In this document: positions 38,693 to 63,422 of the stretch, in pieces
Numbering within the stretch: position 1 is the stretch's first letter
Layout of the letters: the number at the start of each line of letters is the position of its first letter
Origin: Chelatococcus caeni
Lineage (GTDB): Bacteria > Pseudomonadota > Alphaproteobacteria > Rhizobiales > Beijerinckiaceae
Reading direction: 5' to 3'
DNA length: 64,000 nt
Assembly: GCF_014196925.1 (NCBI RefSeq)
Contig: NZ_JACIEN010000005.1
Span: forward strand, 248,001-312,000
Notes under the pieces: model-generated
Databases searched by the model: none
The model's input: only the letters and a program-made list of their open reading frames with translations
Told to the model about the DNA's origin: nothing
Position numbers and translations under genes: made by a program

Positions 38693-39643
38693 ATGCATTT
38701 GCTGCGTTATGCACGAACGATCGCCTCCCTCAGGGGGATTGCGGCAGGGATAGCCGGGGCAATCCTCATGGTGCCCATGGTGATGGTCTTGGAGGGCCGG
38801 AGCACGGCGCAGAATGATCTTGCGGCGGGAAGAGATGTCTTGCGGTATTTCGAGCCGGCGGGCGTTACGCCCGGTCCCATGGATGTCTTCATTCACAAGC
38901 CGGCTGCCTGGCGCCCGCAGGACGGGCGCCTGCTCGTTGTCCTGCATGGCGCCGACCGGAACGCGACGCTCTTGCGGGACACCTGGCGCCCGATTGCCGA
39001 GAGGTACAACCTCCTGCTGATCGTGCCCGAGTTCAGCGAAGCCAAGTTCCCGGGCACCTTGTGGTACAACCTTGGTAATGTCACCGATGCGGCCCGCCGG
39101 CCCCAGCCCAAGGCAGCCTGGACCTTCCATGCGCTCGATCGGGCCGTCGATGCGGTTCGCCAGGCGACCGGCGCGGTGAAGGACCGCTTCCAGCTCTACG
39201 GATTCTCCGCCGGAGCGCAGTTCGCGCATCGATACCTTCTGCTGACCGGCGCACCACGAGTCGACCTCGTCGTGGCCGACAGCGGGGGGTGGTACACCCT
39301 GCCTGATCCGACGCAGGACTATCCCTGCGGTCTCGGCGGCGCGGCTCCGGACGAGGAGGCGCTCCGCTCCGCCCTGGGCCACCCGCTCGTCGTCGATGTC
39401 GGGCAGCACGATACGAAATCGACGGATTACTTCGGGGCCGACGGATACGAGGCCTGCGCCGGCCGCCAAGGTGTAAACCGCGTCGCTCGCGGGCAGTTCT
39501 TCATCGCTTTCGGCAAACGTCAGGCCGAGCGTCTCAAGACGGAGTTCGCCTGGCGCCTCATCGAAGCTCCGGGTGTCGGTCATTCCCAGGAAGAGATGGC
39601 GGAACACGCATCCAATGCGCTGTTCGCGCACATGAAATGGTGA
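38693..39643 (+). CDS. exported alpha/beta hydrolase (esterase/PHB-depolymerase-like)
   Basis: 316 residues. A GGGGAGG site lies directly against the ATG at 38693, so a TTG six bases later (38699) is a realistic alternative start. A hydrophobic signal/anchor (GIAAGIAGAILMVPMVMVL) is followed by an alpha/beta hydrolase domain: oxyanion region VVLHGADRNA, nucleophile Ser in GFSAGAQFAHRY, and a late His in GVGHSQEEM. It could remove acyl groups from the polymer or its units. The final bases overlap the flippase start. Confidence 0.75.
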   Translation: MHLLRYARTIASLRGIAAGIAGAILMVPMVMVLEGRSTAQNDLAAGRDVLRYFEPAGVTPGPMDVFIHKPAAWRPQDGRLLVVLHGADRNATLLRDTWRPIAERYNLLLIVPEFSEAKFPGTLWYNLGNVTDAARRPQPKAAWTFHALDRAVDAVRQATGAVKDRFQLYGFSAGAQFAHRYLLLTGAPRVDLVVADSGGWYTLPDPTQDYPCGLGGAAPDEEALRSALGHPLVVDVGQHDTKSTDYFGADGYEACAGRQGVNRVARGQFFIAFGKRQAERLKTEFAWRLIEAPGVGHSQEEMAEHASNALFAHMKW

Positions 39644-41178
39644 GCGGACCCAAGTCGCCCGCTCAGCGAGTGCTCCAGTCCAATATTGGAGATAGGCTCT
39701 TGCAGACCAGAGAGAAGAAAGCGCTGCTTTGGACTTTCATGGATGTCGTGGGGGGCCAGGGAATCCCGTTCCTCGCATTCCTGATCATCGCGCGCCTGAT
39801 CGGACCGGAGCAGTACGGCGTATTTGCGATCGCGATGGCGCTGATCGGCCTGATGAATGTGGTTCTCTATCACGGCATAGCGGATGCTCTCATCTGGGTG
39901 GAGGATCCGGGGCCGTCGCGCACATCGACGGTATTCTGGATGAACCTGCTCCTGGCAGCGGCCATTTTTCTCGCGATCCAGGGACTCGCCGGCTGGCTCG
40001 CAGCGGTCTACCACGCTCCCATCATAGAGCCCGTGCTGAGGTGGATCGCCTTCCTCGCACCCCTGCAGGCGCTGATGAGCGTCCAGATCGCGCTCTTCCT
40101 GCGCAACCTGGACACGGCCGTCCTGGCGCGGCGCACCATTGTCGGACGGATCGCAGGCGTCGTCGTCGGCATCGCGCTGGCGGCCGCGGACTGGGGCGTT
40201 TGGTCGCTCGTCGCCCTGCAGTTGACGCAGACTGTCGTTTCGGTGGTCATCCTGTGGACGGCGACCTCATGGCGGCCGCGCTTCATATTCAATCTCAAGC
40301 AGGGCCGTGAACTGGCGCGTTTCGGTTTCTGCTTCATGGGGGGAAGCTTTGCGACCGCGCTCAGCAACAGCGTCGACAGCCTGATCGTCGGCCTGTTCTT
40401 CCCGCCCGATGCGGTTGCCTGTTACGTGCTTGCCTCACGCCTCCTCGATATGGCGAGCACCGTCCTGCTGACGCCGATGCGCATGCTCGTCATGCCGATC
40501 CTGAGCCGCAACACCGCTCACCGCGGCGTTTTCACAAGCTCCTACGACATGATGGTGCGGTCCACCCTGGCCATCTGGATGCCCATGCTCCTCGCGCTCG
40601 GCATCGGGGCGGAGGTGTTCGTCCTGGCGCTACTCGGGCCGCAATGGTCGGGCGCCGTCGGCATCCTGCAGGCCATGTGTCTGGTCGCATTCACCTTGCC
40701 GCTGTCCTTCTTCGCAGGCTCGGCGCTGTCGGCGGCCGGACGGCCGGACCTGTTCTTCAAGCTGGCCACGGCGAAACTGCTGACGGTTTCCATCTTCATC
40801 GTCATCGGCGCCCAGTTCAGCCTCACGGCGGTCGGTTTCGCGTGGTCCGGCGCCTTTGCCTGCATCGTCCCGCTATGCCTGTTCACGCTGCAGAAAGCGT
40901 GCGGCGTCAACTGGACCGTGGGAACCAAATCGGCATTGCGGATCGCGGCCGCCGGGCTCGGCTTTGCCGTTTGTGCGCTCGTCACGATCAACTGGATGGC
41001 CGCCTACGATTGGCCAATGCTGCTCTCGCTGTTGAGCGGCATCGGCCTGGGGTTCGTCGTCTATGCGGTCCTGCTCGAATATGTCCTGCTGCCCGGTTTC
41101 GTGAGGACGGCGCTGAAGGAAATCAGGATCTTCTTCGTCCGGGCGGCGCCCGAGACGGAACGGGCGAGCGGGGCCTGA
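39637..41178 (+). CDS. Wzx-type polysaccharide flippase (MOP superfamily)
   Basis: 513 residues with about 12-14 membrane helices and the opening typical of oligosaccharide flippases: IARLIGPEQYGVFAIAMALIG. It carries lipid-linked repeat units across the inner membrane. Its start lies inside the end of the hydrolase gene (7 bp overlap), giving translational coupling. Together with the Wzy-like, Wzz-like and ExoF-like proteins it completes a Wzx/Wzy-dependent pathway. Confidence 0.9.
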   Translation: MVSGPKSPAQRVLQSNIGDRLLQTREKKALLWTFMDVVGGQGIPFLAFLIIARLIGPEQYGVFAIAMALIGLMNVVLYHGIADALIWVEDPGPSRTSTVFWMNLLLAAAIFLAIQGLAGWLAAVYHAPIIEPVLRWIAFLAPLQALMSVQIALFLRNLDTAVLARRTIVGRIAGVVVGIALAAADWGVWSLVALQLTQTVVSVVILWTATSWRPRFIFNLKQGRELARFGFCFMGGSFATALSNSVDSLIVGLFFPPDAVACYVLASRLLDMASTVLLTPMRMLVMPILSRNTAHRGVFTSSYDMMVRSTLAIWMPMLLALGIGAEVFVLALLGPQWSGAVGILQAMCLVAFTLPLSFFAGSALSAAGRPDLFFKLATAKLLTVSIFIVIGAQFSLTAVGFAWSGAFACIVPLCLFTLQKACGVNWTVGTKSALRIAAAGLGFAVCALVTINWMAAYDWPMLLSLLSGIGLGFVVYAVLLEYVLLPGFVRTALKEIRIFFVRAAPETERASGA

Positions 41179-41451: not shown

Positions 41452-42843
41452 TTGGCTATAGATCCCAACAACCTAGCCGCAACAGCTCATCTAACCTTCA
41501 GCGATGAGTTCGATGATCTTTCCATTCGGCATAATCACGCCGGTTCTGGCACGTGGAATACGACGCATGACTACGCGCCGGACGGATACTCGGCCGGAAC
41601 CACATGGTTCGTGAGTGCCGACAATCCCAGCACGTCCGGCGTCCGTCCGTGGACAGTCGACGATGGCGTTCTGAACATCACGGCTCAAGCGGCCCCGGAT
41701 GGCCTGCGTGAGCCGTACACCTCTGGGCACCTCGATACGCAGGGCACCTTCTCGCAAACCTATGGGTATTTCGAGATGAGCGCCAAGATGCCCGCGACGG
41801 GCACGATCGCCGATGGCGGCAACGGCAGCGGGGCCGGCGGCGGTGCGTTCTGGCTTCTCCCCACGAGCGGCGCCTGGCCGCCGGAGCTGGATGTCTTCGA
41901 GTCCAATTCCTGGGGTGGCGTGTTCACCGCCCACACCGGGGTCGGCGGGCACTCGGCCGACAGCACCTGGCTCGAGATTCCGGATCTGTCGACCTCGTTC
42001 CACCGCTACGGCGTGGCTTGGGAGCCCGATAAGATCACCTGGTACCTCGACGGCCAGCAGGTCTATCAGGCTGCGACACCGGCGGACATGCACGACCCCA
42101 TGTACCTGCTGCTCAATCTCTACACCAATGATGGCGGCGGGTCCGGCCCGTCGACGATGGAGGTTGATTACGTTCGCGTCTATGCGGAAGGTGCAGGCGA
42201 CGGCATCACGGATCCGTCGGTGACGGCGTCCACGTCCTCCAGCTCGTCCACGAGCGCGACGACCGAGAGCGCGGCTGCGGCCGAGGCGTCGGCGACGCAG
42301 GGCTCGATTGAAGCTGCCGATGCTATCGAAGCAGCCGATGCCGATGCGTCTGTCACCGTCGAGGCGGATGCCGACGTTTCGGCTGATGCCAATGGTGGAT
42401 CGGGTGCGACCGACGGCTCGGCTGCGACCACCGAGACGGCTTCCGCCACCTCGGGCGAGGAGAGCCTCGTCGCCGATGTGAGCGCGAGCCAGGCCCAAGA
42501 CGCCACCGCCGCGGTGGATCCCGCGCCGGACCTGGTGCCTGCGCCGGATCTGGTGCCTACGCCGGACCTGGCGGGCGATTCCAGGCCCGGTCATCATGGC
42601 TGGTGGCATCAGGGTGGGAGCGATGCGGCCCGATGGGGCGGGATCGACTTCTCGCAACTCCTGGACCATGGCGCGCGGGCGGGATCGTTCTCGCCCTCCA
42701 AAATGGGAAGCGACTTCCAGTCCCATGCCGCGGCCGCCAGTGACGCGTTCACACCGACGGACCATATCGATCTGTCGAGCGTCTTCGGGGCCATGCAAAG
42801 CCACGATCAGGCCTTCCAGGACCATCACCACTGGTGGGGCTGA
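41452..42843 (+). CDS. GH16-family glycanase, probable type I secretion substrate
   Basis: 463 residues starting at a TTG, chosen because GGAGG sits five bases upstream and the next residues (AIDPNNLAA) fit. Residues 15-245 are a GH16 jelly-roll with the catalytic ELDVFE: Glu145, Asp147 and Glu150. There is no signal peptide. After 250 comes a Ser/Thr/Ala/Asp-rich acidic segment, then a PDLVPAPDLVPTPDLAG triple repeat, then a C-terminus rich in His, Trp and Gly. No RTX nonapeptides are seen. By analogy with PlyA/ExsH, exported by PrsDE in rhizobia, it is probably sent out by the pair at 16911-20208 to cut the exopolysaccharide. Confidence 0.85.
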   Translation: MAIDPNNLAATAHLTFSDEFDDLSIRHNHAGSGTWNTTHDYAPDGYSAGTTWFVSADNPSTSGVRPWTVDDGVLNITAQAAPDGLREPYTSGHLDTQGTFSQTYGYFEMSAKMPATGTIADGGNGSGAGGGAFWLLPTSGAWPPELDVFESNSWGGVFTAHTGVGGHSADSTWLEIPDLSTSFHRYGVAWEPDKITWYLDGQQVYQAATPADMHDPMYLLLNLYTNDGGGSGPSTMEVDYVRVYAEGAGDGITDPSVTASTSSSSSTSATTESAAAAEASATQGSIEAADAIEAADADASVTVEADADVSADANGGSGATDGSAATTETASATSGEESLVADVSASQAQDATAAVDPAPDLVPAPDLVPTPDLAGDSRPGHHGWWHQGGSDAARWGGIDFSQLLDHGARAGSFSPSKMGSDFQSHAAAASDAFTPTDHIDLSSVFGAMQSHDQAFQDHHHWWG

Positions 42844-43039: not shown

Positions 43040-44437
43040 TCAGTCGAAGACGGGCGGCCGCCGCGGCGCTCCGAGGGCGTCGCCGAGCCAGCGCATGTCC
43101 GGGTCGCCCCCGAGGTCGAGAACCCCGGCGACGAGGCGCTCGACGGCGGGGGCCGGCAGCGCCATGCCGCACAGCCCGCGCACCTTGTCGAAATAGGCCG
43201 CCTCGCCCACCGGATTGGCCGGCGAGCCGAGCGGGCTCGTCACGCGGGTCTCGAACGAGCGCCCGTCCCGCGCCGCGATCCGAACGAAGGGCTCGTCGGT
43301 TGCCGGGATGGCGTCGTCGGCGGTGAGCGCGATGCGGTCCATGGCTGCGCGCAGCAGGGGATCGGACCGGCGGACAGCGCGATAGGCGTCGAGCCCCGCA
43401 TGGCCGAGCACGAGGCGGGCCGCGAGCGCATAGGGCAGGCTCATCTGCGCCTCGGGCAGGGTATCGACCGTCCGCCCGCCGCACATGTCGAGGAGGAAGC
43501 GGCTGAGCCGCACCTCGATGCGTTCGACGTCGCCGCCGTCAAGGCCGTTGTCGTCGAGAAGAAGGCCGAGCGCGTCGATGGAAGAATGCGTGCCACGGCA
43601 CGACGCATAGGGCTTGAGCGACACGCGCTCCATGCGCCAGCGTTCGCCGAGGCCGATGGTCAGCGCTTCCGGCCGGGCGGAGGACTGGGCGAAGGTGGCG
43701 AGAAAGCCGCCCCAGCGATCCTCGAAAACGGCCGAGGGGCCCGTGACGCCGGCGCCGGCGAGCATCGCCGCGAGCAACCCGCCTTCGGCGGCGCGGCCGG
43801 CGTGGACGCGCTTCGTCTGGCTGCCGTCGTGGATGAAGGCCCACAGGCCGCCGCTGAAGCTCGCCGCATGGCCGAGGGCATGGGCCATGCGTGTCACATC
43901 GAGCTGCATCAGCCGTCCGGCCGCCACCGCGGCGCCGAAGGTGCCGCAGGTCGCGGTCGAGTGCCAGCCGGCGTTGTTGTGCGGCTCGTAGCCGCCGCAG
44001 GCCTCGAGCACCCGCCGGGCGACGTCATAGCCGAGGGTGACCGCGAGGATGAATTCGTCGCCGGAGATCGCGCGCTCGGACAGCGCGACCGCGGCCATGG
44101 CTGCCGGCACGACGACGGCGCCGGAATGGTCGCAGCCGCCGGTGTCGTCGAGCTCGAAGGCGTGGCAGGCGATGCCGTTGACGAGTGCGGCCGAGCGGGA
44201 GGCAAGGCGCCGGTCGGTGCCCCAGGCCGGGGCGGGGCCGGGCTCCTCCGTCGCCTCGACAAGGTCAAGGCAGGCCTGCGCCTCGCGCGAGGCGGCGCCG
44301 GCGATGCCGCAGGCCAGCGTATCGAGGATGTGCCGGGCGCTCTTGTCGCGGATGGGCCGGGGCAAGTCGTCGGGCGAAGCATGCACGACGAAGCGGGCAA
44401 GCGCGGCGGCGCGCAGGTTGTCGGCACTGGCTGTCAT
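43040..44437 (-). CDS. MmgE/PrpD family protein, possible iminodisuccinate/EDDS epimerase
   Basis: 465 residues, the family's usual length. Typical stretches are HILDTLACGIAGA, HAFELDDTGGCDHSGAVVV, GWHSTATCGTFGAA and SLKPYASCRGTHSSIDA. The family includes 2-methylcitrate dehydratase PrpD, cis-aconitate decarboxylase and iminodisuccinate epimerase of Agrobacterium tumefaciens BY6. No methylcitrate-cycle genes are nearby. It is the last gene of an operon that starts with an ArgH-like lyase and includes a polar amino-acid importer, which fits epimerisation of an N-substituted aspartate before lyase cleavage. That assignment is inference from context. Confidence 0.85.
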   Translation of the reverse strand: MTASADNLRAAALARFVVHASPDDLPRPIRDKSARHILDTLACGIAGAASREAQACLDLVEATEEPGPAPAWGTDRRLASRSAALVNGIACHAFELDDTGGCDHSGAVVVPAAMAAVALSERAISGDEFILAVTLGYDVARRVLEACGGYEPHNNAGWHSTATCGTFGAAVAAGRLMQLDVTRMAHALGHAASFSGGLWAFIHDGSQTKRVHAGRAAEGGLLAAMLAGAGVTGPSAVFEDRWGGFLATFAQSSARPEALTIGLGERWRMERVSLKPYASCRGTHSSIDALGLLLDDNGLDGGDVERIEVRLSRFLLDMCGGRTVDTLPEAQMSLPYALAARLVLGHAGLDAYRAVRRSDPLLRAAMDRIALTADDAIPATDEPFVRIAARDGRSFETRVTSPLGSPANPVGEAAYFDKVRGLCGMALPAPAVERLVAGVLDLGGDPDMRWLGDALGAPRRPPVFD

Positions 44438-44462
44438 GGGGACCGCGGTGGAAGGGAAAGGA

Positions 44463-44485
44463 CGCCGGGCGGAGGCCGCCCGGCG
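44463..44485 (-). terminator. intercistronic hairpin after binding-protein gene
   Basis: CGCCGGGCGG and CCGCCCGGCG form a perfect 10-bp stem with a 3-base loop in the gap between the binding-protein gene and the MmgE/PrpD gene. No T-run follows. It probably protects the upstream mRNA or reduces read-through. Confidence 0.7.
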
Positions 44486-44514
44486 CAGTCGAGGGGAGAA
44501 CCTGGAGCGGAGGC

Positions 44515-45348
44515 TTACTTAGCCTCGCCGTTGATCATCAGCTTGTCGAGCTTGGCGTCCTGAAGCTCCCACTTCTTCAGCACCTCCTCGTACGTGCCGT
44601 CGGCGATCATCTCCTTGAAGGCGTGGGCGACGGCGTCGCGCAGCTCCGTGTCCTTCTTGGCGAAGCCCATGCCCTGGTAGACGGAGGTGAAGGGCTTGCC
44701 GACGATGGCGTAGGTGTTGGGCTCGAGATTGAGCAGGTAGGGAAGCGTCTCGCTGCCCTGCACGGCGGCGTCGAGGCGCTTCTGGCGCAGCTGCGTGCGG
44801 GCATCGGCCGAGCCCTCGGTGCCGACGATCTTGAGCGCCGGCTTGCCGTTGGCCTCGCAGGTCGTCTTGCTCCACTTCTCCATCTCGGCGGGGAAGGACG
44901 TGCGGCGGCTCGCGCCCACGGTCTTGCCGCAGAGATCTTCCGGCGCCCTGTACTCGGCGGCGCGGTCGGCCGTCGTGTAGAACTGGGCGCCGGATTCGAG
45001 ATAGTCGACGAAGTCGAGCGTCTCGCGGCGGCCGGGCAGGTCGCTCATGCCGCTCAGGATCATGTCGGCGCGGCCGGTGGTGAGCGCGCTCACCATCTGC
45101 TCGAAGCTGATCTCCTCCCACTTGATCTCAACGCCGAGCTTCTTGGCGAGCGCATTGCCGAGGTCGATATCGAGGCCGGTCAGAGTGCCGGTCTTCGGAT
45201 CCTTGAACTCGAGCGGGGGATAGTTCGGCACGTTGGCGACGACGATCTGCTTCTTCGTCATGATGCGCTCGGGCAGCGCCTGGGCCATCGCCGCGCCGCC
45301 GGCAAGGGCGAGCGCGAGTGCGGAAAGGACGAGGGTACGTGTCTTCAT
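44515..45348 (-). CDS. polar amino-acid ABC transporter substrate-binding protein (family 3)
   Basis: 277 residues with a signal peptide (LVLSALALALAGGAAMAQA). The mature protein has the family 3 pattern: PNYPPLEFKDPKTGTLTGLDIDL near the start, MVSALTTGRADMILSGMSD, and a late KKDTELRDAVAHAF. Two cysteines (in EDLCGKTVGA and KTTCEANG) may form a disulfide. It captures the ligand in the periplasm for the permease and ATPase encoded just upstream. The operon context suggests an aspartate-derived dicarboxylic or polycarboxylic amino acid. Confidence 0.9.
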   Translation of the reverse strand: MKTRTLVLSALALALAGGAAMAQALPERIMTKKQIVVANVPNYPPLEFKDPKTGTLTGLDIDLGNALAKKLGVEIKWEEISFEQMVSALTTGRADMILSGMSDLPGRRETLDFVDYLESGAQFYTTADRAAEYRAPEDLCGKTVGASRRTSFPAEMEKWSKTTCEANGKPALKIVGTEGSADARTQLRQKRLDAAVQGSETLPYLLNLEPNTYAIVGKPFTSVYQGMGFAKKDTELRDAVAHAFKEMIADGTYEEVLKKWELQDAKLDKLMINGEAK

Positions 45349-45382
45349 GGCAGTTGGCTCCGTTGCTCCAGAAGTGATTGTC

Positions 45383-46195
45383 TTACTTGTGAACGGCGGA
45401 AATGAAGGCGCGCGTGCGCGCCTGTTGCGGATCGGTCAGCACCTTACGGGCGTCGCCGATCTCGACGAGCTGGCCCTGGTCCATGAAGGCGACCCGGTTG
45501 CCCACCTCGCGGGCGAAGCCGAGCTCGTGGGTGACCACGATCATCGTCATGCCGGAGCCGGCGAGGTCGCGCATCACGCCGAGCACCTCGCCGACGAGTT
45601 CCGGGTCGAGTGCGGAGGTCGGCTCGTCGAAGAGGAGGAGCTCGGGGCGCATGGCGAGCGCACGGGCGATGGCGACGCGCTGCTGCTGGCCGCCGGACAG
45701 GTGCGCAGGGTAGGCGTCGCGCTTGTCGGCGAGGCCGACGCGCGCCAGAAGCGCCTCGGCGCGCTCGCGGGCCTCGGCCGGCTTCTCGCCAAGCACCTGC
45801 ACCGGGCCCTCGATGATGTTCTCGATCGCGGTGAGGTGGGGGAAGAGGTTGAAGCGCTGGAAGACCATGCCGATGCGGCGCCGCTGGCGCGCGATCTCGG
45901 CATCGGTCAATTCGTGCAGGAAGTTGCCGTCGCGCCGGTAGCCGACGAGCTCGCCAGCAACCCAGATGGCGCCGCCGTCGATGCGCTCGAGCTGGTTGAT
46001 GCAGCGCAGGAAGGTGCTCTTGCCCGAGCCCGAGGGGCCGATGATGCAGACCACCTCGCCCTTCGGCACCGCGATGTCGATGCCCTTCAGCACCTCGTTG
46101 TCGCCGAAGCGCTTGCGCACATCTGCGGCGACGACGAGCGGGGCGGCCGGGGAAAGGTTCTGGTCGTCGGCTGCGGCGGTGGTGCGGATGTCCAT
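45383..46195 (-). CDS. polar amino-acid ABC transporter ATP-binding protein (GlnQ/HisP type)
   Basis: 270 residues from the ATG at 46195; the frame is open further upstream inside the permease gene. Walker A GPSGSGKST, Q-loop VFQRFNLFPHL, signature [15 protein letters not shown], Walker B LLLFDEPTSALDPE and switch His in VTHELGFA are all present. An insertion of about 15 residues between Walker A and the Q-loop (VGYRRDGNFLHELTDAEI) is common in this subfamily. It drives the importer of this operon. Confidence 0.93.
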   Translation of the reverse strand: MDIRTTAAADDQNLSPAAPLVVAADVRKRFGDNEVLKGIDIAVPKGEVVCIIGPSGSGKSTFLRCINQLERIDGGAIWVAGELVGYRRDGNFLHELTDAEIARQRRRIGMVFQRFNLFPHLTAIENIIEGPVQVLGEKPAEARERAEALLARVGLADKRDAYPAHLSGGQQQRVAIARALAMRPELLLFDEPTSALDPELVGEVLGVMRDLAGSGMTMIVVTHELGFAREVGNRVAFMDQGQLVEIGDARKVLTDPQQARTRAFISAVHK

Positions 46196-46209
46196 GGCCA
46201 GTCCTCCCG

Positions 46210-47130
46210 TCACTTCGTATCGGCGGCGGGAGCCGCACCCTTGGAATAGTACTTCTCGATGCGCCCCTGGATGAGGCTGAGCGCCGTCACGACGATGAGG
46301 TACCAGAAGGCGGCGACGATCAGCAGCTCGATGACGCGCGAGTTGGCGTAGTAGATGTTCTGCGCGCTGTGCAGGATCTCGGCATACTGGATGACGCTGG
46401 CGAGCGAGGTGAGCTTGACCATGCCGATGAACTCGTTGCCCACCGGCGGGATGATGACGCGCATGGCCTGGGGCATGATGATGCGGCGCAGCATCTTGAG
46501 CCGCGTCATGCCGAGCGTCTGGGCCGCCTCGTACTGGCCGCGGTCGACCGAGAGAAGGCCGGCGCGCACGACCTCGGCCGTGAAGGCGCCCTGCTGGATG
46601 CCGAGGCCGAGGAGGGCGGCGACGAAGGGCGTCATCACCTCGACCGTCGGCACCGAGAAGAGGCCCGGAATGCCCATGGTCGGGAAGATGAGGGCGAGAT
46701 TGAACCACAAGAGCAGCTGCAGCAGCGCCGGAACCGCGCGGAACAGCCAGATGTAGCCGAGCGCCGTGTAGGACAGCACCGGATTGTCCGACAGCCGCAT
46801 GATGGCGAAGACGACGCCGAGCACGATGCCGACGACCATGGCGAGGATGGCCATGACGATGGTGTTGACGAGGCCGGTCATGATCGCCGGCACCGTCAGG
46901 AACTCGCCGACGTAGCTCCACTCGATCTGCCCGACGACGAAGGCGTGGGCGATGGCGGCCAGCGCCGCCAGGACCAGGGCGGCGGCGACCATCCGCCCAT
47001 AGTGCCGCCGGGGCACATGGACGAGATGGCTGATCTGGTAGACGGTGTCGGTCATCGGCTTTGCTCGTTCTCCTGATCCCGCCGCGGCATCTTCGGCCGT
47101 CGGCAAGGGATCGTTCCTGGCATCGTCCAT
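46210..47130 (-). CDS. polar amino-acid ABC transporter permease (HisM/GltJ type)
   Basis: 306 residues if begun at the ATG at 47130, which has GAGG five bases upstream; a second in-frame ATG at 47055 (MTDTVYQISH) would give 281 and has only a distant AGGAG. About six membrane helices are visible, and the EAA loop reads YEAAQTLGMTRLKMLRRIIMP. A single permease gene is present, so the channel is presumably a homodimer. It lies between the lyase and ATPase genes. Confidence 0.9.
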   Translation of the reverse strand: MDDARNDPLPTAEDAAAGSGERAKPMTDTVYQISHLVHVPRRHYGRMVAAALVLAALAAIAHAFVVGQIEWSYVGEFLTVPAIMTGLVNTIVMAILAMVVGIVLGVVFAIMRLSDNPVLSYTALGYIWLFRAVPALLQLLLWFNLALIFPTMGIPGLFSVPTVEVMTPFVAALLGLGIQQGAFTAEVVRAGLLSVDRGQYEAAQTLGMTRLKMLRRIIMPQAMRVIIPPVGNEFIGMVKLTSLASVIQYAEILHSAQNIYYANSRVIELLIVAAFWYLIVVTALSLIQGRIEKYYSKGAAPAADTK

Positions 47131-47177
47131 TGGGCCCTCGGCGCCGATGACGATGCTTTCCCCGGAAGTGTGCGCGC

Positions 47178-48587
47178 TCAGGCGCTTTCCGCCCAGCGCC
47201 GCTGCGCCTCGACAGTCCTCTTCAGCCGCTCGATCTGCTCGCCGACCCGCGCCGGCGAGGTGCCGCCATAGCCGCTGCGCGCGGCGACGGCCGCCTCGGG
47301 CGTCAGCCTGGGCAGAACGTCGGCACCGAGCCGTGCATCGACGGCGGCAAGGTCCGCCGGCGTCAGCTCCGACAGGTCGATGGCCATTTCCTCGCAATAG
47401 CGCACCAGCGACCCGGTGATCTCGTGCGCCTCGCTGAAGGGCACGCCGTTCTGCGACAGCCAGTCCGCGACCTCCGTCGCAAGGGTGAAGCCCTCGGTCG
47501 CCTGTTCGGCGAGGCGCTCGCGGTCGACCGCCATGGTGGCGATCATGCCGGCCATGGCGGGCAGCACGAGGTCGAGCGTGTCGATGGCCTCGAAGCTCGC
47601 CCACTTGTCCTCGGAGAGGTCGCGGTTGTAGGCGAAGGGCAGGCCCTTGAGCGCCACCAGGAGGCCGTTGAGGCTGGCGATGAGGCGCGCCGCGCGCCCG
47701 CGCGTCAGCTCTGCGATGTCCGCATTCTTCTTCTGCGGCATGATGGAAGAGCCGGTGGCATAGCCGTCGTCGAGGCTGACCCAGCGGAACTGCTTCGAGG
47801 ACCAGAGGAAGACTTCCTCGGCGAGCCGCGAGAGGTTGACGCCGAGCATCGCCGTGACGAACAGGAACTCGGCCACGTGGTCGCGGCTGCCGACGGCATC
47901 GATCGAGTTCTCGCACGGGGCGTCGTAGCCGAGTTCCTTGGCCGACAGCTCGGGATGGAGCGCGATGGCGGAGCCGGCGAGCGCGGCGGCACCGAGGGGC
48001 GAGCGTGCGGCGCGCCGGTCGAAGTCGCGGAAGCGCTCGACGTCGCGCGAAAAGCCCTGGGCATGGGCGAGGAGCTGGTGGGCGAAGGTGACGGGCTGGG
48101 CCGGCTGCAGGTGGGTGAAGCCGGGGCAGAGCGTGTCGCGATGCTGTTCCGCCTGCGCGATCAGCGCCCCCTGCAGGGCGAGCACCTGGCTGGCGAGCCG
48201 GCGGGCGGCGCTGCGCAGGTGGAGCTTGAGGTCGTTCGCCGCCTGGTCGTTGCGCGAGCGGCCGGCCCGGAGCTTGCCTCCCAGCGCACCGAGCCGGTCC
48301 TTCAGCATGCGCTCGAGGAAGGTGTGCACGTCCTCGTCGGCCGGGGAGGGGGCGATGCGCCCGGCGCGCCAGTCTTCCCCGATCGCCTCGAGGGCGGCAA
48401 TGATCTCGCCCGTCTCGGCCTCGGTCAGGATGCCGGCGCGCATCAGTTCGCGCGCATGCGCCACTGAGGATTGCAGGTCTTCCGGCACCAGGCGGAAATA
48501 GTTCGCCGGCGCCCGCGACAGATTCATCAGCGCCTCGGACGGCGGCGAGCGAAAGCGCGCACCCCACAGTCTCACCGGTTCGGTCAT
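47178..48587 (-). CDS. ArgH-like C-N lyase of the aspartase/fumarase superfamily
   Basis: 469 residues from the ATG at 48587, which has AGGAGG seven bases upstream. The superfamily signature loop is intact: TGSSIMPQKKNADIAELTRG (usual ArgH has KNPD). The substrate region normally GKLHTGRSRND reads GKLRAGRSRND, and the N-terminal KIDFD-type stretch is replaced by APANYFRLVPEDL. These differences and its place in a transport operon with an MmgE/PrpD gene argue against arginine biosynthesis. EDDS lyase of Chelativorans belongs to the same branch and releases fumarate from N-substituted aspartates. That function is inferred here. Confidence 0.85.
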   Translation of the reverse strand: MTEPVRLWGARFRSPPSEALMNLSRAPANYFRLVPEDLQSSVAHARELMRAGILTEAETGEIIAALEAIGEDWRAGRIAPSPADEDVHTFLERMLKDRLGALGGKLRAGRSRNDQAANDLKLHLRSAARRLASQVLALQGALIAQAEQHRDTLCPGFTHLQPAQPVTFAHQLLAHAQGFSRDVERFRDFDRRAARSPLGAAALAGSAIALHPELSAKELGYDAPCENSIDAVGSRDHVAEFLFVTAMLGVNLSRLAEEVFLWSSKQFRWVSLDDGYATGSSIMPQKKNADIAELTRGRAARLIASLNGLLVALKGLPFAYNRDLSEDKWASFEAIDTLDLVLPAMAGMIATMAVDRERLAEQATEGFTLATEVADWLSQNGVPFSEAHEITGSLVRYCEEMAIDLSELTPADLAAVDARLGADVLPRLTPEAAVAARSGYGGTSPARVGEQIERLKRTVEAQRRWAESA

Positions 48588-48688: not shown

Positions 48689-49627
48689 ATGACGCGCCCG
48701 CATCTGCCGACGACGACGGGGCTGCGCGTCGTGGCGGCGCTCGCCCAGCACGGCACGGTCTCGGCCGCGGCCCAGGCGCTCAACCTCACGCAGAGCGCGG
48801 TCAGCAAGCAGCTCAAGGCGGTGGAGGACCTCGTCGGCCTCGCGCTCTTCACGCGCACGAGCCGCGGACTGGCGCCGACCGAGGCCGGCGTCATCTACAT
48901 CGCCCAGGCGCGCGTCGCCCTCGGCGCGCTGGAGACGGCGGCAGCCCGGGTTGCGGGCCTGCGCTCCTCGCGGCCGGCGCTCAGGCTGCACGTGCTGCCG
49001 ATCCTGGGGGATCGCTGGTTCATGCCGCGCTTCTCGCGCTTCGTCGAGGCGCATCCCGATATCGAGGTGCAGTTCAGCACCTTCGCCGCCAGCGACACGG
49101 TGGAGGAGGCGGACATCGTCTTCCGCTTCGGTGACGGGCACTGGCCCGGCTGGCAGGCGGATTATTTCCTCGGCCGGGAGGTGCTCCTTGTCGGCGCACC
49201 GCAGTTCATCGCCCGCGGCGGCGGCATCGATGCGCCGGAGGATGCATGGCGCTTCCCGATTTTGGAGCATCGGCAGACGCCGCTCCACTGGAGCGACTTC
49301 GCCGCGAGCCACGGCATCGGCGATGTGCGACCGGAGCGGATGGTGCGGCTCGGCTATTATTCGCTCGTCATCCGCGCGGCCATCGCGGGACAGGGCCTGG
49401 CGCTGGTGCCGCGCAGCCTGATCCTCGACGAGCTCGCCGGCGGGCAACTCGTCAATCCGGCGGGGCTCGGCTACTCGAGCACCAATTGCTACTGGCTGAC
49501 GACGCCGCTCGACCGGCCGCGGCATGCCGACCTCGCCACCTTCTGCGACTGGGCGCTGGCGGAAGCGCGCGAGACGGAAAGTACAGCGGCGGCTCAGGCG
49601 CCGCTCGCTGCCTCGCAGCGTTCGTAA
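48689..49627 (+). CDS. LysR-family transcriptional regulator (GcvA-like)
   Basis: 312 residues with AGGAGAGGG before the ATG. The N-terminal winged helix-turn-helix is clear (HGTVSAAAQALNLTQSAVSK, then LFTRTSRGLAPTEAG). The effector domain follows, with SLVIRAAIAGQGLALVPRSL. It is divergent from the ArgH-like operon and likely controls it in response to a substrate or intermediate. Its last 34 bp overlap the convergent deacetylase gene. Confidence 0.92.
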   Translation: MTRPHLPTTTGLRVVAALAQHGTVSAAAQALNLTQSAVSKQLKAVEDLVGLALFTRTSRGLAPTEAGVIYIAQARVALGALETAAARVAGLRSSRPALRLHVLPILGDRWFMPRFSRFVEAHPDIEVQFSTFAASDTVEEADIVFRFGDGHWPGWQADYFLGREVLLVGAPQFIARGGGIDAPEDAWRFPILEHRQTPLHWSDFAASHGIGDVRPERMVRLGYYSLVIRAAIAGQGLALVPRSLILDELAGGQLVNPAGLGYSSTNCYWLTTPLDRPRHADLATFCDWALAEARETESTAAAQAPLAASQRS

Positions 49628-50463
49628 TGGTCGGCGATGTCGCGGCCCGTCGCCCACCAGACGTCGTCGAAGCACGCGACATGGGTCAGGAATTCGTCGA
49701 GCAGGCGATGGCGCATCGGCCGTCCCGACACCTGCGGATGCAGCATCATGGTGGTGACGCCGCCCCAGGCGTGCGTCTGCTCGAATTCGTCGCGCCAGAT
49801 GGAGAGCACGGCCTCGCGGCCGAAGAGCGCGCGCGGGCTCATGCGGTGCGTGATGCCGAAGTTCCAATCGTCGAGGCTGTAGTTGACCGGGATCTCGATC
49901 GGCCCCGGCCCGTCCGGCAGCAGGTGGCGGTAGGGCCGGATGTCGTCTCGCCAGGAGCTGGAATAGCGGATGCCGCGCTCGCGCAGCATCTTGAGCAGCG
50001 CGACGCAGCTTTCGCCCGACGGCGCGCGGTAGCCCACGGGCACGACGCCGAGGACGCGCTTCAGCGCCTCGAAGCCCCGCTCCACCTCCTCGCGCATCAC
50101 CTCGTCGTCGCCCGGCTCCGGCCGCAGGTGCCAGTAGCCGTGGTGGGCGATCTCGTGCCCCGCCTTCAGGATGGCCTCGCAGGCGGCGGGATGGGCGTCC
50201 ACCGTCCAGCCGGTGACGAAGAAGGTCGCCTTGGCGCCGTGGTGGGCGAGCAGCTCGAGGAGCTTCGGGATGCCGACGCGCGCCTCGTAGCCGCCGTAGG
50301 ACATGGTGACGAGGCGCTCGGCATTGCGCCGGTCGATGCCGAGCCAGACCGATTCGGCATCGACGTCGAAGCCGAGGAAGAAGGCGGACTGCTTGCCGTC
50401 GGGCCAGGGAAAGTCCGGGGCGGGCGGCGCGGGATTGGCCGGGCGGGGCATGTCGGCTGGCAT
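49594..50463 (-). CDS. polysaccharide deacetylase family protein, PuuE-like
   Basis: 289 residues from the ATG at 50463 with GAGGAGA upstream. There is no signal peptide, so it acts in the cytoplasm. NodB-fold motifs: FDVDAES (catalytic/metal Asp pair), GHEIAHHGYWHLRPE (metal His), GYRAPSGES and MLHPQVSGRP. Cytosolic members of this branch are annotated as PuuE-like allantoinases or amidohydrolases acting on small molecules rather than polymers. The neighbouring amino-acid genes favour a small C-N substrate, but none can be named. Confidence 0.82.
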   Translation of the reverse strand: MPADMPRPANPAPPAPDFPWPDGKQSAFFLGFDVDAESVWLGIDRRNAERLVTMSYGGYEARVGIPKLLELLAHHGAKATFFVTGWTVDAHPAACEAILKAGHEIAHHGYWHLRPEPGDDEVMREEVERGFEALKRVLGVVPVGYRAPSGESCVALLKMLRERGIRYSSSWRDDIRPYRHLLPDGPGPIEIPVNYSLDDWNFGITHRMSPRALFGREAVLSIWRDEFEQTHAWGGVTTMMLHPQVSGRPMRHRLLDEFLTHVACFDDVWWATGRDIADHYERCEAASGA

Positions 50464-50554: not shown

Positions 50555-51067
50555 CTATGAGGCCTCGGCGGCGAGCGCTGCGAGCTGCTCGCCCGGCAGG
50601 GTGTAATAGACCTTCTCCACCGCCCGCGCGCCGAGCGCGGCATAGAGCCGCTGGGCGCCCTCGTTGCCCCGGTCGGTGGTGAAGTCGATGCGGCCGATGC
50701 CGTTGTCGGCGGCGAAGCGCGCGATGAAGGCCATGAGGCCACGGCCGAGCCCCCGGCCCCGCGCCGCCTCGACGACGAAGAGGTCCTTCAGGTAGACGAG
50801 CCCCTTGAGGTCGCGGCCGGGCCGGATCACGGCGATGCAGGCGAGCCCGAGCGGCGCGCCGTCCGCGCCGCTGGCGAGCACGAAGCGCGTGCCCTCCCGC
50901 TCTCCGAGCGTCGCCGCGACCATCGCGCGATAGTCGCCCGCCGGCGGCAGCGCCTCGCCCGGGCGATAATGCGCATCCATGGCCGCGATGAGCGCTGCGA
51001 CCGTCGCTGCATCCGCCGGCGTGGCGAAGGCGATGGAGACGGCGGATGCGGGAGCGGTGGCGGGCAT
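50555..51067 (-). CDS. GNAT-family N-acetyltransferase
   Basis: 170 residues from the ATG at 51067; a longer frame begins at 51157 but lacks family character there. The acetyl-CoA loop is VVEAARGRGLGRGLMAF (R-x-x-G-x-G/A pattern), after LVYLKDLFV, and a late RLYAALGARAVEKVYY. The acceptor is unknown. It is 91 bp upstream of the deacetylase gene on the same strand, so the two could be an acetylation/deacetylation pair or just neighbours. Confidence 0.82.
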   Translation of the reverse strand: MPATAPASAVSIAFATPADAATVAALIAAMDAHYRPGEALPPAGDYRAMVAATLGEREGTRFVLASGADGAPLGLACIAVIRPGRDLKGLVYLKDLFVVEAARGRGLGRGLMAFIARFAADNGIGRIDFTTDRGNEGAQRLYAALGARAVEKVYYTLPGEQLAALAAEAS

Positions 51068-51253
51068 TCCTGAGCGACCGGCGTTGAGGCGACGACGCGC
51101 GACCTTTGCCACGGCCGCGGCGAAAGGCAAGCGGGCATGAGCGCGACGGGTTCGCACTTGAAGGCCCGGCGACGGGGCGGAATAGTGGCGATCTCATTCA
51201 TCCGGGCGGTCGAGCGCCGGTCGGCGCCGCCGTTTCTTCACCGCGAGGCCCGC

Positions 51254-51919
51254 ATGACCGTGACCCTCGGCATCATCCACACGTCCGTGGCGACCCTCGA
51301 CGTCTTCCCCGGCCTGATCCGCGCCGAGGCGCCCGAGCTCCGCATCATCAACATCCTGGACGATTCGATCCTGCCGGAGCTGCGCGACAACGGCGGGCGC
51401 CTCGAGGCCGTGCTGCCGCGCTGGGCCGGCTATTGCCGCACGGCGAAGGATCAGGGGGCGCGGCTCCTCCTCAACGCCTGCTCGTCGATCGGCGCGCTCG
51501 GCGCCACGGTTTCGTCGCAGGTCGGCATCCCGATCCTGCGGGTCGATGCCGGCATGGCGCGCGCGGCGGTGCGGCGCGGCCGGCGTATCGCCGTCATCGC
51601 CACCTTGCCCACCACGCTCGAGCCGACCACGGCGCTCGTCGAGGAGACGGCCCGGGCCGAAGGCGTCGAGGCCGATGTCGAGGCCGTGCTGGTGGAGGGT
51701 GCCTATGACGCCCTGATGGCGGGCGACCGCGACGGGCACGACCGGCGCCTCGTCGACGCATTGGGGGAGGTCGCGGCGCGCAGCGATGTCGTGGTGCTGG
51801 CCCAGGCCTCGATGGCGCGGGTGGTGCCGGCGCTCGCGGAGGAGGAGCGTGGCAAGGTGCTGGCGAGCCCGCCCTTCGCCGTGGCGGATGTCGTCGCGGC
51901 CCTCGCGCGGATCAGCTGA
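51254..51919 (+). CDS. Asp/Glu racemase superfamily protein with one catalytic cysteine
   Basis: 221 residues from the ATG at 51254, which has GAGG six bases upstream; a longer frame from 51137 lacks family character. The first catalytic Cys is kept (Cys76 in LLLNACSSIG). The second, normally in VLGCT, is replaced: VVVLAQASMARV near 180-191. Two-base racemases need both, so this is likely a one-base enzyme such as a decarboxylase, isomerase or lyase of the superfamily. It is convergent with the DeoR gene 12 bp away. Confidence 0.8.
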   Translation: MTVTLGIIHTSVATLDVFPGLIRAEAPELRIINILDDSILPELRDNGGRLEAVLPRWAGYCRTAKDQGARLLLNACSSIGALGATVSSQVGIPILRVDAGMARAAVRRGRRIAVIATLPTTLEPTTALVEETARAEGVEADVEAVLVEGAYDALMAGDRDGHDRRLVDALGEVAARSDVVVLAQASMARVVPALAEEERGKVLASPPFAVADVVAALARIS

Positions 51920-59187: not shown

Positions 59188-60480
59188 ATGCAGCGCGCCG
59201 ATGCCGTGTGGGGTGAGGTCGACAGCCGTTTCCGCGGCATTCCCGTGGAATGCGGCGCCGTCGGGCTCGATGCCGTTGCGGCCTTCGGCTGGCATCCGGC
59301 GGCCGGGGACATGGCGTTGCCGGTATTGACCCTGGACGAGGTGGCCTTTGCCGGCAATTGCGAGCTGATGTTCGCCTATGCCCGCTCACACGGCGTCCTC
59401 ATCGCCCCCCACGCGAAAACGCCGATGTCGCCGCACCTCGCGCGCACCCTCGTCGCCCGCGGCGCCTGGGGCGCGACGGTCGCGAATGTGCAGCAGGCTT
59501 CGGTCATGGCCCATGCGGGCATCGAGCGTCTGCTGCTCGCCAACGAGATCGGTGGCCGCTCCGGTGCCCGCCAGCTCGGCGCCTTCCTCAAGGCCTGGCC
59601 GGGCGTCGACCTGCGCGCCTTCGCCGATTCGCCGGCCTGCGTCGCGGCCCTTGCCGAGGCCGCGCGCCTTGCCGGGCGCGTGCTGCCTGTCCTCGTCGAG
59701 GTGGGCGGCGCGCGGGCCGGCGCGCGGGACCTCGCTGCGGTCGAGGCGATCGTCGCCGCCGTCGCCGAGGCGGACGGCAGCCTCGTGCTCGACGGTGTCG
59801 CCGCCTATGAAGGCGCCGTGGCTGGCGCCGATGCCGCGGCGACGCGTGACGCGATCGGCGCCCTGATGGCGCTTGCGGGGGAGGCCTTCGCCCGCGTGCG
59901 CCGGGCCGCGCCCGGCCGGCCGCTGATCGTCACGGCCGGCGGCTCGTCTTACTTCGACAGGGTGGTCGCGGCGCTCGGGCCGCTGGTGCGTGCGGACGGC
60001 AATGCCGCCCTCATGCTGCGCAGCGGCGCCATCTTCTTCCACGACCACGGCGTCTATGCCCGCGCCCTTTCGGGCCTCGACGCGCGCAACGGCTTTTCGA
60101 TCGATGGCAAGGTCGTGAAGGCGGCCGAGGCCTTCCGCCCGGCGCTGCGGCTGTGGGCGGAGGTGCTGTCGCGGCCGGAGCCGGGCCTTGCCATCTGCGG
60201 CATGGGCATGCGCGACGTCTCCTTCGACCAGGGCGTGCCGGTGCCGCTCGAGGCGTTTCGCGATGGCGCGCCGATCGGCAGCCTGTTAGGCGCCGCCGTC
60301 GTCAAGCTCAACGATCAGCACGCCTTCCTGCAACTGCCGGACGATGCGTCGCTCGCGGTCGGCGACATCGTCGCCTTCGGCATCTCGCATCCGTGCACCT
60401 GCCTCGACCGCTGGCGCCTCGTGTTCGGCCTTGGCCCGGACGGGCGGGTGGCGAACGCCTATCCGACGTTCTTCGGCTGA
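59188..60480 (+). CDS. PLP-dependent D-amino-acid dehydratase/aldolase (DSD/D-threonine aldolase family)
   Basis: 430 residues, GGGGGAA before the ATG. The alanine-racemase-like barrel has the PLP Lys77 in IAPHAKTPMSPHLA, the family PHAKT signature. The C-terminal domain has ISHPCTCLDRWR: His401 and Cys403 form the His-x-Cys metal site of eukaryotic-type D-serine dehydratases, whereas D-threonine aldolases use His-x-Asp. So a zinc-dependent D-serine dehydratase or related D-amino-acid deaminase is favoured. It leads an operon with an amino-acid importer and RidA, which deals with the enamine/imine product. Confidence 0.88.
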   Translation: MQRADAVWGEVDSRFRGIPVECGAVGLDAVAAFGWHPAAGDMALPVLTLDEVAFAGNCELMFAYARSHGVLIAPHAKTPMSPHLARTLVARGAWGATVANVQQASVMAHAGIERLLLANEIGGRSGARQLGAFLKAWPGVDLRAFADSPACVAALAEAARLAGRVLPVLVEVGGARAGARDLAAVEAIVAAVAEADGSLVLDGVAAYEGAVAGADAAATRDAIGALMALAGEAFARVRRAAPGRPLIVTAGGSSYFDRVVAALGPLVRADGNAALMLRSGAIFFHDHGVYARALSGLDARNGFSIDGKVVKAAEAFRPALRLWAEVLSRPEPGLAICGMGMRDVSFDQGVPVPLEAFRDGAPIGSLLGAAVVKLNDQHAFLQLPDDASLAVGDIVAFGISHPCTCLDRWRLVFGLGPDGRVANAYPTFFG

Positions 60481-60488
60481 GGCACGCC

Positions 60489-61154
60489 ATGACGCTGAAC
60501 TTCAGCCAGCTCTGGCGCTACGACGACCTGCTCCTGCACGGGGCGCTGCTGACGCTGCTCCTGACGGTGATCGCGGCGGTCGCGGGCACCCTGATCGGCG
60601 TCTGCGGGGCCGTGCTGGTGCGGGGCGGGCCGCGGCCGGTGCGCTGGGCCATCCGTGGCTATATCGAGGTCATCCGCAACACGCCGGCACTGATCCAGCT
60701 CTTCATCATCTTCTTCGTGCTGCCGAGCCTCGGGTTGCGCCTGCCGCCCTTTGAGGCGGCGGCGGTGGCGCTGAGCATCTATTTCGGGGCCTATGCCATC
60801 GAGATCATCCGCGCCGGGCTCGACGCCATCCCGCGTGCCCAGCTGGAGGCCGGCGAATGCCTCGGGCTCACGCGCTGGCAGGTCTTCCGACACATCGTCT
60901 TCCTGCCGGCGCTGCGGACCATCTATCCCTCCTTCACCAGCCAGTTCGTGCTGCTTCTGCTCGGCACCTCGCTCGCCTCACAGGTCTCGGCCGAGGAGCT
61001 GTTCCACACCGGCGGCTTCATCGACAGCCGCACCTTCCGCAGCTTCGAGGTCTACGCCGTCGTCTGCGCCATCTACTTCGCGCTCGTCATGGCCTTCAAG
61101 CTCGTCTTCGCCGGGCTCCAGAGGCTCATGTTCCGCTGGCCGGTGCGGCGCTGA
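60489..61154 (+). CDS. polar amino-acid ABC transporter permease 1
   Basis: 221 residues from the ATG at 60489, eight bases after the enzyme stop. HisQ/HisM-type permease with about five helices; the early stretch [20 protein letters not shown] is diagnostic and the EAA-like loop reads [21 protein letters not shown]. It is likely to form a heterodimer with the following permease. Confidence 0.92.
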
Positions 61155-61162
61155 GGGTTCCC

Positions 61163-61813
61163 ATGCGCACGTTCAACGAAGCCGATCTCATCTCGCTGTT
61201 CTCGGCCCTGCGCTGGACGGTGGTTCTCGTCGCCCTGGCGCTCGCCTGCGGCGGCCCGCTGGCGCTGCTGCTCGCGCTCATGCGCTCGAGCCGGCTCGCG
61301 CCGCTGCGCTGGCTGGCAGCCGGTGTCCTGCAGCTCGTGCAGGGGGTGCCGCTCCTCGGCCTGCTCATGTTCTTCTATTTCGGCATGCCGGTGTTCCTCG
61401 GCATCGAGGTGCCGTCCCTCGTCGCCGTCGGCGTCGCCTTCACGGCCTATACCGCCGTCTTTCTCGGCGAGATCTGGCGTGGCGGCATCGAGGCGGTGAA
61501 GCAGACCCAGTGGGAGGCGGCGGCCTGCCTCGGGCTGACGCGCTGGCAGCAGTTCCGCTACGTCGTCGGGCCGCAGGCCTTCCGCATGGCGCTGCCGCCG
61601 ACGGTCGGCTTCCTGGTGCAGCTCATCAAGAACACCTCGCTCGCCTCGGTCGTCGGCTTCGTCGAGCTCGCCCGCGCCGGACAGATGGCGAGCGCCGCGA
61701 CCTTCCAGCCGCTGCTCGTCTACTCGGTGGTGGCGGCGATCTATTTCACGCTGTGCCTGCCGCTCACGGTCTGGTCCCGCAAACTGGAGGCCCGTCTCAA
61801 TGGCGCTCGTTGA
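61163..61813 (+). CDS. polar amino-acid ABC transporter permease 2
   Basis: 216 residues from the ATG at 61163, eight bases after the first permease. It shows [20 protein letters not shown] and the EAA loop [19 protein letters not shown]. Its 3' end overlaps the ATPase gene by 14 bp, indicating translational coupling. Confidence 0.92.
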
Positions 61814-62528: not shown

Positions 62529-62571
62529 GCGCAACGGTGAGCGCCCAAGGAGAAGTCAGAGGAGAACGAGG

Positions 62572-63360: not shown

Positions 63361-63366
63361 CGCCAA

Positions 63367-63392
63367 GTGGCGGCGCGGGCCCGCGCCGCCAC
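63367..63392 (+). terminator. intercistronic hairpin after binding-protein gene
   Basis: GTGGCGGCGCGGG is followed directly by its reverse complement, giving a 26-bp perfect palindrome with no spare loop. It lies six bases past the stop and has no T-run. Confidence 0.65.
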
Positions 63393-63422
63393 CTCACCCG
63401 CAGCAAGAAGAGAGATCAGAAG

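Follow-up and report, generated by a model that had tools for sequence, protein, structure and literature searches.

The yxe (scm) locus of Bacillus subtilis and its 2SL variant, which serve the breakdown of S-(2-succino)cysteine, group an ATP-binding cassette (ABC) importer with an acetyltransferase, a deacylase and YxeQ, an MmgE/PrpD protein; in the 2SL variant these are accompanied by a fumarate-releasing lyase of the fumarase/aspartase superfamily. The same superfamily holds argininosuccinate lyase (ASL, encoded by argH) and the ethylenediaminedisuccinate (EDDS) lyase of Chelativorans sp. BNC1, and the iminodisuccinate (IDS) epimerase of Agrobacterium tumefaciens BY6 has the PrpD fold. The locus described here belongs to Chelatococcus caeni (assembly GCF_014196925.1) and lies in positions 248,001 to 312,000 of contig NZ_JACIEN010000005.1, a stretch of 64,000 nucleotides referred to below as the window. 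Five minus-strand genes encode an ArgH-branch lyase, an amino-acid-type ABC importer and an MmgE/PrpD-fold protein, beside a divergent LysR gene (Table 1); a sequence-only reading of this DNA had listed these six genes, and all were found in place with agreeing domain matches. The operon is widespread and uncharacterised, and is labelled as arginine synthesis. We tentatively interpret it as a nitrogen-scavenging operon that would import and split an N-succinyl guanidino compound of the argininosuccinate type, on the basis of its gene content and conservation, a separate true ArgH, an altered pocket residue, recurrent ureohydrolases and published expression in Sinorhizobium meliloti. The substrate, the direction of the pathway and the roles of the PrpD-fold protein and of a PuuE-like hydrolase are proposed from protein families and neighbouring genes.

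Against the TIGR00838 argH model, the window lyase scored 510.7 bits, above the curated cut-off of 279.5, and the public records examined name lyases of this type argH. A separate argH, which the sequence-only reading had proposed to check for, was found on contig C2 of the same genome, where a true ArgH scored 608.5 bits compared to 510.5 for the window lyase. The window lyase is therefore not the sole ArgH of the genome, and the conclusion that it is not the biosynthetic one is supported. Among 60 genomes (that of the window and its relatives), window-type lyases with 62-100% identity were present in six, namely the window's own, G003, G002, G013, G024 and G014; the best match in the other genomes was mostly of the ArgH type, at approximately 38-46% identity. 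A tree of 136 rows, 103 of them belonging to the window clade, joined this clade to the ASL of Mycobacterium tuberculosis with a support of 0.996 and placed it far from EDDS lyase, although the split between the clade and this ASL, the one actinobacterial ASL in the tree, had a support of only 0.057.

Comparison of 89 rows of the clade with 25 alphaproteobacterial ArgH rows revealed that the two groups agree in their catalytic and fumarate-side residues (Ser111, Arg112, Asn113, Thr158, His159, Ser280, Ser281, Lys286, Asn288, Asp290, Tyr320, and Lys328), except for Ser in place of Thr158 in one clade row; Lys287 of the window lyase is Arg in 20 of the 25 ArgH rows. The SSIMPQKKN loop is retained, as previously noted. 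Two other motifs earlier taken as departures from ArgH did not withstand the comparison: KLRAG has its counterpart in RLRAG at the same place of M. tuberculosis ASL, and KNAD is no sign of a non-ArgH enzyme, since 45 of the 89 clade rows have Pro at that position. The substrate-side departures that hold, as judged from the alignment, are residues 24-29, 325 and 329. Residue 325 aligns with Q326 of human ASL, presumably a substrate contact; it is Ser in the window lyase and Ala, Ser, Val, or Ile in 49, 33, 6 and 1 clade rows, respectively, with Gln in none of the 89 but in 24 of the 25 ArgH rows. Residue 329 is Glu in all 25 ArgH rows and variable in the clade, which also differs from ArgH at residues 24-29. 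With the fumarate side constant, these changes suggest that the leaving-group half of the pocket has been altered and the succinyl half kept.

Genes of the ureohydrolase family recur beside the operon. In a synteny sample made of the window and the best 80 of at least 569 confirmed lyase matches, 20 of the 81 loci, from about eight genus-level groups, had a member of one ureohydrolase cluster within approximately 8 kb of the lyase, while approximately one locus would be expected by chance from a background of about 0.65 PF00491 hits per Mb (70 hits in 19 genomes, approximately 108 Mb). Those 19 were scanned out of 21 genomes with a window-type lyase or PrpD-fold protein, all save G003 and G510; near 21 lyase or PrpD loci, eight hits were found where about 0.3 were expected, and they came from five genomes (G519, G572, G428, G646, and G682), of which the first two correspond to L048 and L041, respectively, L048 being counted also among the 20 loci. 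The nearby ureohydrolases belong to two subfamilies, guanidinobutyrase-type and guanidinopropionase-like. In Herbaspirillum and Duganella the former stands directly upstream of the lyase in 8/8 loci; the protein of L066 scored 523 bits with the Pseudomonas aeruginosa guanidinobutyrase and shares 92-96% identity with the other seven. The latter occurs in Microvirga (L039, 282 bits to guanidinopropionase), Azospirillum and others. In Gemmobacter, an agmatinase-family gene adjoins the PuuE-like gene on the opposite strand, and a further genome (L138) has an arginase and an ornithine cyclodeaminase next to the operon. The recurrence of ureohydrolases and of the PuuE-like hydrolase as neighbours suggests guanidino or cyclic-amide chemistry.

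The importer is conserved with the lyase. Of the 80 loci, 72 have a homologue of the window permease, 70 of the ATPase, 69 of the binding protein, 55 of LysR, 37 of PrpD, 36 of the PuuE-like gene and 16 of GNAT; retention of the importer genes in 69 to 72 loci indicates that the run is not a chance arrangement. Clustering of the genes of all 81 loci, as predicted by a codon-usage caller, gave PrpD in 38, PuuE-like in 37 and GNAT in 32, absences in these counts being upper bounds because in 13 loci the genes called past the lyase cover under 7 kb. The importer-bearing operon spans alpha-, beta- and gammaproteobacteria. Eleven of the 80 loci had no binding protein, three of them short contigs (L080, L088, and L091) and eight from Pseudomonas (L098, L107-L112, and L114). 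In seven of these eight Pseudomonas loci, the genes that come next, on the opposite strand, are members of the 3-hydroxyisobutyrate dehydrogenase, methylmalonate-semialdehyde dehydrogenase and MFS transporter clusters. The 89 lyase, 103 clade, 50 PrpD and 106 binding-protein rows used here are not all independent: L136 = L048, L138 = L041, L145 = L093 and L150 = L074 are the same genomes, as are L009/L150, L008/L152, L010/L151 and L011/L149; L007 and L036 may be one genome, and the lyase in L002 and L006 is that of the window itself.

On the large plasmid pSymB of S. meliloti, the lyase (argH2, 61% identity to the window lyase), permease, ATPase, binding protein, PrpD, PuuE-like hydrolase, LysR and GNAT genes occur together, with the PuuE-like gene 3' of PrpD rather than beyond LysR. 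Published data for a tolC mutant of this species report argH2 as lowered 20.7-fold by array and 4.5-fold by quantitative PCR, and SMb21095-97, matched here to the operon by gene order and by the name argH2, as lowered 10.3 to 17.5-fold (PMC2912261). Genes for nitrate transport, glutamate synthase, histidine degradation and the agmatinase speB2 were also lowered, while the other urea-cycle genes, arcA2 excepted, were raised (PMC2912261).

The PrpD-fold protein matched the N- and C-terminal MmgE/PrpD domains with 205 and 88.5 bits, respectively. Among solved chains it is nearest to IDS epimerase (135 bits) and to the B. subtilis protein 7bra (129 bits), the latter presumably YxeQ as judged from its length, a name absent from the structure paper. 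A methylcitrate dehydratase was rejected, as the sole NCBIfam match to that PrpD reached 19.8 bits against a cut-off of 950; in this respect the sequence-only reading, which had set the protein apart from such enzymes, stands. In IDS epimerase, His99 and Tyr145 are suggested as the two bases, and the active-site residues are described as fully conserved in the B. subtilis protein (PMC7347537). All 50 rows of the window subfamily (52 before two at 31% identity were dropped) retain His99, have Asn in place of Tyr145 and miss the Arg of RGHP, and the claim of an IDS-epimerase type thus fails on these two residues. The WH, TK and HxG positions of IDS epimerase are conserved in the window protein, for which a role as an epimerase is only a lead from sequence.

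A search of 297 genomes of the order gave nine with a PrpD match at E <= 1e-70. Among eight PrpD neighbourhoods, a window-type lyase was found in three (L135, L136, and L138), an ArgH-like lyase of 38-39% identity was present in two (L137 and L139), and a lyase of 33% identity in another two (L140 and L141); of this last pair, only that of L141 was searched, and it was closest to EDDS lyase (225 bits). In the neighbourhood of L134 no lyase was found, and PrpD stands with a dihydropyrimidinase, a hydantoinase/carbamoylase-family protein, a ureohydrolase, ABC genes and a PuuE-like gene. The association of one PrpD subfamily with three distinct lyase lineages suggests that C-N cleavage and PrpD are linked, and its company of C-N lyases and ring-opening hydrolases suits an N-substituted aspartate or its cyclic form.

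The PuuE-like (CE4) hydrolase, absent from the earlier list of genes, belongs to the system: it is tied to PrpD across loci, being found in 36/37 PrpD-bearing loci and in no locus without PrpD, and the lone PrpD locus that lacks it (L047) is a contig of 7,999 bases. In Gemmobacter and Sinorhizobium it directly follows PrpD. With the allantoinase PuuE model it scored 82.7 bits, below the cut-off of 424.6, and its nearest solved chain was 3rxz (194.8 bits), named only as a polysaccharide deacetylase. Tandem pairs of PuuE-like proteins that diverge in sequence were observed in L065, L070, L075, L079, L082, L084, L086 and L042, while the window has one gene; the first protein of each pair keeps an HGxxH motif that the second mostly lacks, which suggests a possible two-subunit enzyme. 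The GNAT acetyltransferase is probably associated with the operon as well. In L075, L081 and L105 (Paraburkholderia/Burkholderia), a LysR gene separates the lyase-ABC run from another run, which holds PrpD, the PuuE-like pair and a further binding protein.

In 105 of 106 binding proteins the carboxylate-binding Arg is retained, and in 105, that of the window among them, Gly replaces the Asp of the ancestral amino-acid binder AncQR, the residue that contacts the ligand ammonium in this family.

The pathway that we tentatively favour would proceed as follows. The ABC importer would take up an N-(1,2-dicarboxyethyl) (N-succinyl) guanidino compound, which the lyase would split by beta-elimination into fumarate and a guanidino acid. 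This product may be arginine but, because the distal pocket is changed, is more likely an acid without the alpha-amino head, e.g., 4-guanidinobutyrate; it would then be handed to enzymes that release urea, whose genes belong to the cluster in some lineages and lie elsewhere in the Chelatococcus genome. The PrpD-fold protein would most likely invert the aspartate carbon, making both epimers usable, and the PuuE-like hydrolase might open a cyclic amide (anhydride) form. A more specific and doubtful extension is that the operon salvages argininosuccinate-type compounds in their extracellular form, in which the ring has closed spontaneously to an anhydride and the aspartate carbon has racemised. 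The ring would then be opened by the PuuE-like hydrolase, PrpD would epimerise the aspartate carbon in a way that differs from IDS epimerase, the lyase would yield fumarate and the guanidino acid, and importer, hydrolase and epimerase would constitute a module joined to at least three lyase lineages. Many bacteria that live in soil or with plants carry the operon, the model symbiont S. meliloti among them. If the nitrogen-scavenging interpretation is correct, a class of argH genes would have to be re-annotated, the PrpD and PuuE-like partners would have a role open to experiment, and a nitrogen compound not recognised so far in soil or rhizosphere would come to light. No paper on the function of the cluster was found in the open-access literature searched, and a published substrate may exist outside it.

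Several observations weigh against nitrogen scavenging from a guanidino compound. The ureohydrolase cluster is missing from 61 of the 81 loci and PrpD from 43 (both upper bounds), and 14 of the 19 scanned genomes, the window's included, have no ureohydrolase near the operon; the window genome has six PF00491 hits, five on other contigs and the nearest 172 kb away. The eight Pseudomonas loci carry the lyase without the importer. A sigma-54 site 5' of the lyase, as a sign of NtrC control, was not found above chance (2/82 at p <= 0.05), and another agmatinase gene, speB, was raised in the tolC mutant (PMC2912261). The Gly-for-Asp replacement is a weak sign, since four of the 106 binding-protein rows come from other ABC loci and share it, and epimerisation is uncertain because the subfamily lacks Tyr145, the second base of IDS epimerase. 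As for the several lyase lineages beside PrpD, alignment to the distal pocket of the window lyase is poor for L140 and L141, and the L140 lyase differs even at window positions 112-113.

Within the same interpretation, a narrower case takes argininosuccinate itself as substrate and makes the lyase a second, catabolic ASL giving arginine; this case is unlikely. It draws on the above-cut-off score with the argH model, on the joining of the clade to M. tuberculosis ASL, and on one genome (L138) in which an arginase (305.7 bits, cut-off 227.6) and an ornithine cyclodeaminase (556 bits, cut-off 350) stand beside the operon. Replacement of the distal-pocket Gln in 89/89 rows, together with the changes at residues 24-29, is hard to reconcile with reading an arginine head, and the Herbaspirillum operon is headed by a guanidinobutyrase, not an arginase.

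The main rival, to which we give a low probability, is salvage of a fumarate adduct in the manner of yxe (scm): an N- or S-succinyl amino acid would be acetylated by GNAT, relieved of fumarate by the lyase, and the product deacetylated by the CE4 hydrolase. By function the parts are the same (ABC importer, lyase, acetyltransferase, and deacylase; PMC9706529), with YxeQ as the PrpD protein, and both the presence of GNAT in 32 of the 81 loci and the 129 bits between the window PrpD protein and its B. subtilis homologue 7bra are in accordance with it. However, GNAT was not found in the other 49 loci, an upper bound, and its presence does not follow that of PrpD and the PuuE-like gene; the deacylase is here of the CE4 family, unrelated to that of YxeP. 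Moreover, the PrpD subfamily is without the Tyr and Arg common to IDS epimerase and 7bra, and the expression of the S. meliloti operon tracks that of nitrogen genes.

Improbable, further, is the specific proposal of the sequence-only reading, namely uptake, epimerisation and cleavage of IDS, EDDS or an aspergillomarasmine-like metallophore. Its general part, import of an N-substituted aspartate and cleavage to fumarate, remains the likeliest chemistry; its IDS/EDDS specifics do not. In its favour are IDS epimerase as the best solved match of the PrpD protein, the L141 lyase, which is nearest to EDDS lyase and stands beside a PrpD of the same subfamily, and the acceptance of many amines by EDDS lyase (PMC12363623). 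The window lyase is nevertheless ASL-like and not EDDS-like, with 453 bits to ASL and 200 to EDDS lyase, its place in the tree, and His159 in 89/89 clade rows where EDDS lyase has Gln159 (PMC12363623). The IDS-epimerase residues are lost from the PrpD subfamily, and the recurrent neighbours are ureohydrolases and the PuuE-like hydrolase, with hydantoinase-type genes in L134. No recurrent siderophore, metal or receptor gene was seen among the neighbourhoods read, in which many neighbours are without an identity.

A redundant biosynthetic ArgH isozyme next to an unrelated amino-acid importer, as the argH annotation of public records would have it, is very improbable and largely refuted by the true argH of the genome, the conservation of the importer operon over three proteobacterial classes, and expression in S. 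meliloti opposite to that of arginine synthesis.

The features of the window are collected in Table 1, with families assigned by Pfam and NCBIfam profile matches. The permease gene is the only one of the run, and the form given by the ORF caller is longer at its upstream end. The gene order is repeated on plasmid pCO-6 of Chelatococcus sp. CO-6, whose lyase (AL346_RS22160) is 100% identical to that of the window. An Asp/Glu racemase-family gene adjoins the GNAT gene; it was dropped as a part of the system, as it recurs beside the operon in 1/80 loci (Chelatococcus composti). Exopolysaccharide-type genes lie beside the operon. As placed by the CO-6 annotation, a second amino-acid importer stands with RidA and a gene of the alanine racemase family, an arrangement that resembles a locus for taking up a racemised amino acid. 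No tRNA was found in the window, nor any Rfam match at gathering score. In other genomes, an oxidase/dehydrogenase set lies near the lyase operon of Caballeronia/Burkholderia (L071, L072, L093, L096, L097, and L156:2613-6604), with soxA-like and ThiO/soxB-like FAD proteins, its own binding protein and, in some, a 2Fe-2S protein; we take it to resemble opine or secondary-amine oxidases. The lyase locus of L051, in a record named Mycobacterium sp. KBS0706, is laid out as that of Inquilinus limosus (L053), and the record is possibly misnamed.

Table 1. Positions of the operon genes and of neighbouring features in the window.
Feature	Position	Strand	Remarks
ArgH-branch lyase (fumarase/aspartase superfamily)	47178..48587	-	469 amino acids, ATG start; first gene of run; Lyase_1, ASL_C2 and TIGR00838
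Amino-acid-type ABC permease	46210..47055	-	281 amino acids; BPD permease domain; start from CO-6 annotation gene length
ABC ATPase	45383..46195	-	270 amino acids; ABC ATPase domain; start from CO-6 annotation gene length
Family-3 periplasmic binding protein	44515..45348	-	SBP_bac_3
MmgE/PrpD-fold protein, distinct subfamily, proposed epimerase	43040..44437	-	MmgE/PrpD N and C domains; motifs ELDDxGGCDHSGAVV and HNxxGWHSTxTCG
LysR regulator, GcvA-like	48689..49627	+	Divergent; LysR family match
PuuE/NodB-like (CE4) hydrolase	49594..50463	-	Beyond LysR; start from CO-6 gene length
GNAT acetyltransferase	50555..51067	-	Beyond LysR; start from CO-6 gene length
Asp/Glu racemase-family gene	51137-51919	+	666 bp in CO-6 annotation
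Flippase	39637-41178		Exopolysaccharide-type
GH16 protein	41452-42843		Exopolysaccharide-type; long low-complexity Ala/Ser/Asp tail
Second amino-acid ABC importer	~59200-63600		Two permeases, ATPase, binding protein; placed by CO-6 annotation

Compared with the described systems, the operon differs from yxe/2SL in its ArgH-branch lyase, its CE4 hydrolase and its PrpD residues, in a comparison by protein families and functions of the parts; ureohydrolases stand in place of cysteine recovery, and the expression in S. meliloti is nitrogen-linked. With IDS epimerase, the PrpD protein has the fold and His99 in common, but its subfamily has Asn for Tyr145 and no Arg of RGHP. EDDS lyase shares with the window lyase the superfamily, the SSIMPQKKN loop and chemistry on N-substituted aspartates; at the site of the catalytic His common to ASL and the window lyase it carries Gln159. 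The closest relative of the window lyase, both by sequence and in the tree, is ArgH, especially of the M. tuberculosis type, with which the full catalytic set is common; the whole window clade nevertheless differs from it in the distal-pocket Gln and nearby residues, and its gene company is catabolic.

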